Assembly (NCBI GenBank): GCA_003151665.1
Contig: PLYD01000230.1
Coordinates: forward strand, 1-7,470
Direction of reading: 5' to 3'
Source of the DNA: Candidatus Dormiibacterota bacterium
Lineage (GTDB): Bacteria > Chloroflexota > Dormibacteria > Dormibacterales > Dormibacteraceae
DNA: 7,470 bases
Part shown: in pieces, positions 2,327 through 5,782 of the stretch
Layout: the number at the start of each line of letters is the position of its first letter
Position numbering within the stretch: position 1 is the first letter of the stretch
The notes under the pieces: generated by a model
The model's input: only the letters and a program-made list of their open reading frames with translations
What the model was told of the DNA's origin: nothing
Databases searched by the model: none
Translations under genes and position numbers: made by a program

Positions 2327-2607
2327 GCGAGAAACGCGCGGGCGGCAAGCGGTATGTGATCCACGTTGTTGACGTCTTCACGGACAAGCCCTTGGCAGGG
2401 AACCAGCTCGCCGTGGTCCTGGACGCTGAAGGAATTCCAGGCGAGGTCATGCAGCGCATCGCGAAGGAGATGAACATCTCCGAGACCGTATTCGTGCTTC
2501 ATCAACATCCGTCTCGCGTATGCGCACGAAGGAGACATACCATCGTCAATCCAGGTCGGCGGGTCGGTGGGCGAGCTGGCCGGCGGCTGGTAGCAACGAA
2601 CAGATGA
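2323..2607 (+). pseudogene. Truncated PhzF-family isomerase/epimerase-like protein (N-terminal fragment)
   Basis: Residues 11-59 are a clear PhzF N-terminus: VVDVFTDKPLAGNQLAVVLD, then IAKEMNISETVFVL, including the Glu of the SET motif that acts as catalytic base in PhzF. From about nt 2500 the similarity stops. Residues 60-94 are Arg-rich and lack the expected FTPxxELPFAGHP block and the whole second domain; PhzF proteins normally have about 260-300 residues, against 94 here. The stop (TGA 2605-2607) overlaps the next start as ATGA. In another frame nt ~2505-2584 read EGDIPSSIQVGGSVGE, faintly like a PhzF C-terminus, so an internal deletion joining both ends is possible but unproven. Probably inactive, unless the truncation is an assembly artefact. 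Confidence 0.72.
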
Positions 2608-3464
2608 AGGTCGACAGCTACCGATTTCTCCCGCGAAGCTTCCGCTCCTATTACGAAGGACGCGGGCCGTTTGCCGGCGAAGACAAGCTGGTGTGGGCTC
2701 CTTTTGAGAAGCGCCTGCAGGAATCACGCATCGCCCTGCTCACTTCCGCCGGCCTGTACCTGAAGAGATCCCAGCCATCTTTTGATGTCGAGCGCGAACG
2801 TGCCAATCCCGAATGGGGTGACCCCAGCTGGCGTGCGATTCCGGCCGCCTCAAAGGCGTCGGACCTGGGAGTCGCCCACCTACATATCAATGACGTGGAC
2901 CTGATCGCTGATCCCGAGATTTCTTTGCCTGCACATCTTCTCGAACGGCTGGCGGCCGATCGAGTCATCGGCAGCGCCGCGACCGAGCACGTCTCGGTGA
3001 TGGGCTATCAGGAGCGAACCCTCGAGGGCTGGCGCGACACGACTGCCGGCGAGGTGATCGCGCACCTGAGGAGTCAGGGCGTGGACGGCCTCATCCTCGC
3101 TCCCGCTTGACCCGACTGCTGCTCGAACGTGCCCGTGCTGGCACGATGGATCGAAAGGGCCGGAATCCCGACGGTGGTCGTGACGATGATGCCGGCCTTG
3201 GCTGAGGAGCGGCTCGCGCCGCGCGTGGTTGGTGTCGAGTTTCCCTATGGCCACTCTTTTGGGATGCCGGGCGATGAGTCGATGCGGCGTCATGTTCTCG
3301 AGCTGGCGCTGCGCGTCCTGGCCGGAGCGGGCGCGCCTGGCACCAGGGTCGACCTGGACGTCGAGTGGCCGGTCCCGCTGCGTGAGGCTTACCGGGCGTG
3401 GCAGCCGAAGGAGGCGAGCCCCATCGTCAAGGTGCTGCTGGAAACGGGCCGGCGCCCAGGTTAA
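2604..3464 (+). CDS. Selenoprotein of the GrdB/PrdB (selenoprotein B) reductase family, Sec169
   Basis: One 286-residue protein if the in-frame TGA at 3108-3110 is read as selenocysteine. Both halves are in the same frame and join without a gap: GVDGLILAPA-U-PDCCSNVPVLARW. Residues 1-168 match the N-terminal part of the glycine/sarcosine/betaine/D-proline reductase selenoprotein B family (YRFLPRSF, RIALLTSAGLYLK, EWGDPSWRAIP, GVAHLHIND, VIGSAATEHVSVMG). Residues 170-286 supply the rest (RWIERAGIPTVVV, VEFPYGHSFGMPG at about 211-223). U169-P-D-C172 is a UxxC redox motif at the family's active-site position. GTG 3129, which would be needed to start a separate downstream gene, has no Shine-Dalgarno and would drop the motif. 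A SECIS-like hairpin follows the TGA. Known relatives cleave C-N bonds reductively in GrdB/PrdB complexes; no partner subunit is nearby, so the substrate is unknown. ATG 2604 overlaps the upstream stop (ATGA). Confidence 0.85.
3111..3154 (+). promoter_or_regulatory. Putative bacterial SECIS hairpin directly after the Sec UGA
   Basis: CGTGCC (3128-3133) pairs perfectly with GGCACG (3140-3145), closing a 6-nt apical loop CGTGCT (3134-3139). Below it, TCGA 3123-3126 can pair with TCGA 3151-3154 across an asymmetric internal loop (A3127 against 3146-3150). The loop has a G at its second position, and 24 nt separate the TGA from that G. Both fit the published bacterial SECIS pattern (small apical loop, G among its first two bases, roughly 16-37 nt from the UGA). 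The hairpin lies inside the coding sequence, as bacterial SECIS elements do, and would bind SelB. No folding energy was computed. Confidence 0.7.
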
Positions 3465-3468
3465 TACG

Positions 3469-3500
3469 TACTAACGTTGCAGGGTTGGCCGGGGGTTCCC
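3469..3500. repeat. Dispersed ~32-bp repeat, copy 1
   Basis: Begins TACTAACG, contains the core GCAGGGTTGGCCGGGGG and ends TTCCC. It aligns with 5610-5640 with four mismatches and one 1-base gap. This copy fills most of the 38-bp space between the stop of the selenoprotein gene and the convergent msrB stop. A TTTTTCG follows it at 3509-3515, as one also does a little way past the second copy. It is not a recognisable terminator, because the GGG-TT-CCC loop is too small. Confidence 0.6.
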
Positions 3501-3502
3501 TC

Positions 3503-3895
3503 TCATAGTTTTTCGAGCTTGATCGAAACGGAGTTGATGCAGTAGCGCAGGCCGGTCGGCTCGGGACCGTCATTGAACACGTGGCCCAGATGCCCTCCGC
3601 AGTTGGCACACGTGACCTCGGTCCGCTCCGTGAAGAGGCTGCGGTCGACATGTTCGGCGACAGGCGCGTCCTCGGCAGGAGCGTAAAAGCTTGGCCAGCC
3701 ACAGTGGGCGTCGAACTTGGTTTCCGACTCGAACAGCTTGGCGCCACAGCCGGCGCAGAGGTAAACACCCGGGGTGGTGGTGTCCCAGTACTCACCTGTG
3801 AACGGTCGTTCTGTGCCCTTCTCGCGCAGCACGTGGTACTGCGTGGGGGTCAGGTCGCGCTTCCACTCCGCCTCGGACTTCTTCACCGATTCCAT
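3503..3895 (-). CDS. msrB: Peptide-methionine (R)-S-oxide reductase MsrB
   Basis: Reduces methionine-R-sulfoxide in proteins, using thioredoxin as the usual reductant; cytoplasmic, no signal peptide. The 130-residue protein carries the full MsrB set: [20 protein letters not shown] with zinc-site CxxC (Cys47, Cys50), HCGWPSF (Cys65), a second CxxC in [17 protein letters not shown] (Cys96, Cys99) with His102 and His105, and RYCINSVS with catalytic Cys119. The active-site residue is Cys, not Sec. ATG 3895 is chosen because family members start just before the [15 protein letters not shown] region; the frame is open to 3937 and a GTG lies three codons upstream. It is divergent from the PPOX gene (83 bp between) and convergent with the selenoprotein gene. 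Confidence 0.95.
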
Positions 3896-3978: not shown

Positions 3979-4410
3979 ATGGCCACGCGTAAGAAACCGC
4001 TGCTCGACACGACCAGTCCCGAAGGCAAGCGCGTGCAGAAACGCCTGGAGAAGGAGCTGATCATCTGGCTTGCAACCGGCGGCCGCGATGGCCGGCCGCA
4101 CGCGGTGCCAGTGTGGTTTTTGTGGGACGGCAAGTCGTTCCTCATCTACTCACTGCCAGGCCAGAAGGTCAACGACATCGAGGCCAACCCGAAGGTCCAA
4201 TTGCATTTCAACACGACCCCTGACGGCGACGATGTCGTCCGCATCGATGGCGAAGCGACGCGTCTGAAGCGGCATCCCCTTGCACACAAAGTCCCGAGCT
4301 ACATTCGCAAGTACGCGCGCCTGATCAAGGGCTACGACTGGACACCCGAGAGCTTCGCCCGGCAATACCACATCGCTCTTCGGGTCCAGCCGACCCGACT
4401 CCGCACCTGA
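3979..4410 (+). CDS. PPOX-class F420-dependent oxidoreductase (TIGR03667-like)
   Basis: A 143-residue split-barrel (pyridoxamine 5'-phosphate oxidase-like) protein. It closely follows the pattern of the actinobacterial TIGR03667 group (for example Rv3369): [28 protein letters not shown], then [24 protein letters not shown], a VVRIDGEA strand, and the C-terminal [11 protein letters not shown]. Members of this group are assigned to the deazaflavin cofactor F420; the substrate is unknown. ATG 3979 gives the expected N-terminus. No Shine-Dalgarno is visible, but TACGCT at 3963-3968 could be a -10 box giving a leader of only a few nucleotides. Its stop overlaps the next start by one base (TGATG), so it is very likely co-transcribed and translationally coupled with the LLM gene. 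F420 versus FMN is inferred from subgroup resemblance. Confidence 0.87.
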
Positions 4411-5324: not shown

Positions 5325-5561
5325 ATGGCCGACAGCGTCTACAGAGTGACCGAGCTGGTGGGGACCAGCAGCACATCGTGGGAGGCGGCCGCGAAGAGTG
5401 CCGTCGAAACTGCATCGAAGTCCCTGCGTGATCTCCGCGTCGCCGAGGTCGTCAGGCAAGACATGACCATCGAAGACGGCAAGGTCACCAAGTACCGAGT
5501 CCGGCTGAACGTCTCGTTCAAGTACGACGCCCCACCAGCCAAGTCTCGAAGCCGCAAGTAA
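5325..5561 (+). CDS. Dodecin-family flavin-binding protein, Trp-less variant
   Basis: A 78-residue protein with the small beta-alpha-beta-beta dodecin fold: VYRVTELVGTSSTSWEAAAK, a helix to about residue 36, then EVVRQDMTIEDGKVTKYRVR and LNVSFKY. Dodecins form hollow dodecamers that store or sequester flavins. At the place of the flavin-stacking Trp of characterised dodecins (W36 in Halobacterium salinarum, W38 in Thermus thermophilus) this protein has Val39 (LRVAEV against LDWFEV). Asp46 replaces the Arg next to the site, while a Trp appears instead at position 19. A basic tail (KSRSRK) ends the protein. ATG 5325 is set by a strong AAGGGGAGG 5 nt upstream (5311-5319). A UUCG-loop terminator follows directly. 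Family is secure; flavin binding is uncertain. Confidence 0.92.
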   Translation: MADSVYRVTELVGTSSTSWEAAAKSAVETASKSLRDLRVAEVVRQDMTIEDGKVTKYRVRLNVSFKYDAPPAKSRSRK

Positions 5562-5569
5562 ACAACCAC

Positions 5570-5610
5570 CCCGGCACCTGCTTCGGCTGGTGCCGGGTCC
5601 TTTACTTTCT
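5570..5610 (+). terminator. Rho-independent terminator after the dodecin gene
   Basis: CCCGGCACC (5570-5578) pairs perfectly with GGTGCCGGG (5589-5597). Inside this 9-bp stem a T-T mismatch is followed by two further G-C pairs closing a TTCG tetraloop (5582-5585), a very stable cap. A pyrimidine-rich, T-heavy tail (TCCTTTACTTTCT) follows. It begins 8 nt after the dodecin stop. Confidence 0.88.
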
Positions 5611-5640
5611 ACTAGCGCGGCAGGGTTGACCGGGGTTCCC
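5610..5640. repeat. Dispersed ~32-bp repeat, copy 2
   Basis: TACTAGCG, then core GCAGGGTTGACCGGGG and TTCCC; partner of 3469-3500. In this copy CCGGGG-TT-CCCCCGG (5630-5644) forms an almost perfect inverted repeat with a loop too small for a normal hairpin. TTTTTCG follows about 15 nt beyond the repeat. It starts exactly where the terminator tail of the dodecin gene ends. Confidence 0.6.
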
Positions 5641-5782
5641 CCGGCCATGACTTTGTTTTTCGGCGCTCCCAATCGTGGCGTGGAGGAACTAATTCGTCGA
5701 TAAATGCAATCCCGGGAAGGAGAGCAACCGCGTCGGCGAAGCCGACCCGGCGACGAGAGGGAACAGTCTGGTTCTCTGTCAT
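5612..5782 (-). CDS. Possible small protein downstream of the hydrolase (doubtful)
   Basis: A 56-residue frame whose ATG lies 2 nt after the hydrolase stop (TAG-AT-ATG), so it could be translated by coupling. It reads MTENQTVPSRRRVGFADAVA at the N-terminus and becomes Arg/Pro-rich at its end, where it runs through repeat copy 2. No Shine-Dalgarno or family match is recognised, and third-codon positions are less GC-rich than in neighbouring genes. A perfect hairpin GTCGGC-GAA-GCCGAC (5732-5746) lies inside it. The stretch may equally be a non-coding spacer or gene remnant. Confidence 0.15.
   Translation of the reverse strand: MTENQTVPSRRRVGFADAVALLPGIAFIDELVPPRHDWERRKTKSWPGEPRSTLPR

Follow-up and report, generated by a model that had tools for sequence, protein, structure and literature searches.

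A PrdB-like gene from Candidatus Dormiibacterota with an in-frame TGA codon very probably read as selenocysteine

Results

A gene that software would split at a stop codon almost certainly encodes a single selenoprotein belonging to a known, reductase-like family. The gene occupies positions 2604 to 3464 on the forward strand of the 7,470-nucleotide stretch of DNA analyzed here (the window) and comprises 286 codons followed by a TAA stop. With TGA read as a residue, its translation is interrupted only at codon 169 (3108 to 3110, in the context APA-U-PDCC), where the putative selenocysteine opens a U-P-D-C motif at positions 169 to 172 of the product. As the initial annotation had anticipated, mechanical open reading frame (ORF) calling splits the gene at this codon, with both pieces in one frame: the upstream ORF ends at 3110 (196 residues from ATG 2520, or 168 from ATG 2604), and the downstream ORF has 111 residues from GTG 3129. 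Joining the two is a solid annotation correction, not a new kind of biology.

The residue at column 169 was followed through homologous proteins and genes. A search of 5.8 billion proteins returned 1410 matches, and among the best 120 of these, 113 are 167 to 170 residues long, consistent with a cut at the TGA, while 7 are full length. These seven proteins read through both halves in one frame, and all carry Cys at column 169, as C-P-D-C or C-P-G-C; the short homologues that were aligned (8 of 8) stop immediately before this column. One of the short Dormiibacterota proteins (168 residues) is named selenoprotein B family protein by NCBI. Scanning genome contigs with two patterns, both placed away from the TGA, yielded 44 loci with protein identities of 48 to 98%, in metagenome-assembled genomes (MAGs) titled Dormiibacterota, Chloroflexi, Actinomycetota, Acidimicrobiia, Acidobacteria, Rubrobacter, Dehalococcoidia, Alphaproteobacteria, and others. 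All 44 loci have TGA at column 169, where it is the sole stop of the aligned frame, a recurrence far beyond chance. A more distant set of 39 distinct genes (28 to 39% identity), drawn from the phylum and from paralogues, contains 36 with TGA at this column and 3 with Cys.

The column thus contains only TGA or Cys in all homologues examined, in agreement with the earlier placement of the TGA at the active-site U/C position of the family. Both C/U169 and C172 are invariant in 35 aligned proteins and form the U/CxxC active-site motif, at a column shared across the GRDB/PrdB superfamily; Cys172 (codon at 3117 to 3119) would be the resolving thiol of the UxxC pair. Two distant relatives, L065 and L092, have U-P-x-D-H and lack the second Cys of the motif. 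One genome titled Alphaproteobacteria (G035) contains six PrdB-like genes, each with one in-frame TGA.

Bacterial selenocysteine insertion (SECIS) elements are described, in the available text of one survey, as small apical loops that contain a guanosine and closely follow the TGA (PMC1088965). A predicted hairpin of this kind, CGUGCC-CGUGCU-GGCACG, whose apical loop contains a G, lies at 3128 to 3145 on the forward strand. Immediately 3' of the TGA, the window and all 44 loci read AACGTGCCCGTG[C/T]TGGC[A/G]CG. Codons 175 to 178 are identical in 45 of 45 sequences, the window included, and codons 179 and 180 occur in two forms each (40 and 5 sequences), whereas the very next codon, for Arg181, is free to vary (four codons, used 13, 13, 10, and 9 times). 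Synonymous variation over codons 174 to 180 is 0.19 of that expected, the lowest among 267 codon windows, whose median is 0.86. The stem, written CGUGCC-CGUGYU-GGCRCG, can pair in all 36 distinct near-family sequences. Since the folding energy of the hairpin in the window is no better than that of shuffled sequences (z of -0.3 to -0.6), the case for a SECIS element rests on conservation.

The near-family stem hardly varies, and covariation comes from the distant set only. There, 34 distinct TGA sequences have a different hairpin, about six bases nearer the TGA, in which 205 of 238 pair cells are formed (shuffles: mean of 166.3, maximum of 180 in 5000), slid registers reaching at most 0.53. The changes are compensatory, one pair being seen as G-C, C-G, A-U, and U-A. 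This hairpin is not universal, as the minimum-energy fold differs in several members (e.g., L065, L083, L084, and L089). Of the 7 pairs, the three Cys genes of the distant set still form 2, 4, and 3, so that the hairpin is largely tied to the TGA. The frozen near-family hairpin and its covarying sister provide a clean pair for studies of SECIS recognition.

The nearest relative, locus L001, encodes a protein 98% identical to that of the window (DNA identity of 94 to 96%) and belongs to a Dormiibacterota MAG, G001, in which selA and selB are adjacent on one contig (C26), selD is found on another (C21), and a tRNA-Sec scores 69.4 bits on a third (C7). From this relative, the bacterium of the window would be expected to possess the selenocysteine machinery as well. 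Over the 44 relatives' genomes, which are related MAGs of unstated completeness whose counts are not independent, matches above the cut-off were obtained for selA in 41, selD in 40, selB in 38, and tRNA-Sec in 38. The tRNA-Sec matches reach at least 54 bits in 35 cases; those below this score may represent other tRNAs, given that the tRNA cut-off was also passed by 5 of 14 control genomes. Every genome has at least one of the four components, and three (G006, G016, and G043) have neither selA nor selB above the cut-off. Among the 40 genomes with a selD match, 33 (all within G002 to G044) have a selD that itself contains one in-frame TGA and probably encodes a selenoprotein too; the selD of G001 has none.

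Because the pairing of Cys with TGA, the SECIS-like hairpin with its frozen codons, the covariation in the sister subfamily, and the selenocysteine machinery of the relatives all point the same way, we hold with high confidence that TGA 3108-3110 is read as selenocysteine by means of a bacterial SECIS element, as first annotated. None of the outcomes that the initial annotation had listed as counting against this reading was encountered, the machinery genes being present in the nearest relative's genome. Judging from the conserved parts, SelB carrying Sec-tRNA would bind the hairpin at 3128 to 3145 behind the UGA at 3108, and selenocysteine would then be inserted at residue 169.

Placement of the protein within its superfamily is less exact. 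The initial annotation spoke of a match to the selenoprotein B family over the full length. Against the NCBIfam PrdB profile, the two halves score 56.6 and 33.7 bits separately and 105.9 bits when joined, but the alignment of the joined protein covers residues 28 to 244 of 286 only. The Pfam GRDB family (PF07355; gathering cut-off of 22 bits) covers residues 26 to 166 only, scoring 20.3 bits with the joined protein and 22.4 with the first half, the second half alone having no Pfam match. The profiles rank PrdB first and GrdB-type models next, all below the curated cut-offs of the PrdB and GrdB models (300 bits for PrdB, TIGR04483, an equivalog). The label of a GrdB/PrdB-type reductase therefore holds at the superfamily level only: besides the low score, neither the PrdA/GrdE-type partner family (PF09338) nor GrdA was found in 43 of the 44 relatives' genomes. 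Both are present in the remaining genome, G023, an Acidimicrobiia MAG, which indicates that the searches can detect them. On contig C8 of that MAG (15068 to 19899), a GrdA with an in-frame TGA lies close to a GrdE/PrdA-type subunit, suggesting a real glycine reductase-type cluster.

An AlphaFold model of the product (pLDDT of 92.5, pTM of 0.93) places residue 169 between a strand (162 to 166) and a helix (170 to 185), and such a strand-to-helix junction is a usual place for a redox residue. When the model was compared with the PDB, no fold stood out. From the UxxC motif and this position in the model, Sec169 may attack a substrate or disulfide, with Cys172 resolving the intermediate. The enzymatic function is assigned solely by homology; the best reading, toward which we lean slightly, is a stand-alone thiol/selenol oxidoreductase.

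The genomic neighborhood offers a lead only. Of the 22 loci in a block with at least 70% identity, 21 have an upstream phzF in the same orientation, which starts 836 to 932 bases upstream in 19. The PhzF-type isomerase fold is related to that of proline racemase. It is conceivable but rather improbable that the selenoprotein and the PhzF-type isomerase form a two-gene unit in Dormibacteria, that is, a PrdA-independent selenoenzyme pathway of soil bacteria in which an amino-acid-like substrate would be isomerized and then reductively opened or reduced. Other genes in the phzF survey, all without a profile match, we take to be PNPOx-like, dodecin-like, nicotinamidase-like, and thiolase-like. A comparison with L001 shows two gaps in the window (at 2019 to 2607), one of about 193 bases at 2280/2281 and the other of about 626 bases near 2497. 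They disrupt the ORF at 2019 to 2312 (presumably thioesterase-like, with no Pfam match) and the phzF that directly precedes the selenoprotein gene. The missing bases represent either real deletions or misassembly, and the broken phzF might affect expression of the selenoprotein gene. Similar short intergenic sequences follow the selenoprotein gene (3470 to 3516, with a terminator-like hairpin at 3491) and the ORF ending at 5561 (5610 to 5657); sequence that follows the gene in L001 is matched by the second copy as well.

Discussion

Several other readings of the TGA were weighed. Were it a recent nonsense change or a sequencing error in front of a decaying downstream piece, the two disrupted neighbors would fit the picture of a damaged locus, but the same TGA recurs at all 44 loci and in 36 of the 39 distant genes, in records of several phyla, and the downstream frame is intact and conserved with the hairpin codons frozen; we regard a pseudogene as having virtually no likelihood. 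Two separate proteins, one of 168 residues ending at the TGA and one of 111 residues restarting at GTG 3129, are extremely unlikely. This GTG does open an ORF, and the initial annotation had counted against it the want of a ribosome binding site. Indeed, GTG 3129 is preceded by no obvious site, but on visual inspection the same is true of the start at 2604 and of several relatives' starts, so the argument does not discriminate; weak sites seem common in the clade, and this alone gives no ground for rejecting a restart. What does count against one is that each of the seven full-length Cys proteins spans both halves, that the conservation of the GTG is explained by its position inside the frozen hairpin, and that a restart would fall inside helix 170 to 185 of the model. 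A code in which TGA generally specifies an ordinary amino acid would also leave the frame open, yet TGA serves as the stop of five further genes in the window (those for GDPD, LysE, LLM, and MsrB and the ORF ending at 4410), and Cys is the one residue seen at the column in homologues. This reading, too, has a negligible chance of being right.

The remaining alternative accepts the selenocysteine and takes the protein for a genuine PrdB or GrdB that acts in D-proline or glycine reduction with a PrdA/GrdE-type partner. The order of the profiles, the match of 35 of 35 members of set A2 to the PrdB model, and the JGI name of many homologues, "D-proline reductase (dithiol) PrdB," speak for it. Against it stand the score of about a third of the PrdB cut-off, the confinement of PF09338 and GrdA to a single genome among 44, and the window itself, where no prd or grd neighbor was recognized. 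We thus consider this alternative very unlikely: the selenoprotein is probably distinct from the known clostridial enzyme, and probably neither a D-proline nor a glycine reductase.

The gene reveals a clade of selenoproteins that the databases represent mostly by fragments of 168 residues (113 of the best 120 of 1410 matches). Dormibacteria MAGs are shown to carry selenocysteine decoding genes, and the role of stand-alone PrdB-like proteins becomes testable. A literature search on selenoproteins of Dormibacteria found no paper; for the Chloroflexi, the accessible part of a 2006 survey gives three selenoproteins of three families (PMC1794560).

PrdB and GrdB themselves are given as selenocysteine families in the available sections of reviews (PMC9312934, PMC13188914). 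With the D-proline reductase subunit PrdB, our protein shares an alignment of residues 28 to 244 with profile positions 17 to 223 of 238; it differs in its score and in the rarity of the partner subunit among its relatives. It corresponds to the C-terminal half of GrdB, GrdF, and GrdH, the selenoprotein B subunits of glycine, sarcosine, and betaine reductases (profile positions of about 205 to 425), and lacks their N-terminal ~200 positions; their GrdE-type and GrdA partners turned up in one of the 44 relatives' genomes only. A further parallel, by description, is with the PrdB selenoproteins of marine metagenomes, which belong to the same superfamily (pfam07355/PrdB), have selenocysteine in a UxxC motif, and have known Cys homologues; the likeness is drawn at the superfamily level. 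In the accessible portions of the 2005-2008 reports, these proteins are listed as abundant in the Sargasso Sea and GOS data, with 42 and 235 sequences, respectively, and with a SECIS element just downstream of the TGA (PMC1088965, PMC2398784). The selenoprotein described here is thus well supported and ordinary in kind, PrdB-family UxxC selenoproteins being already in print.
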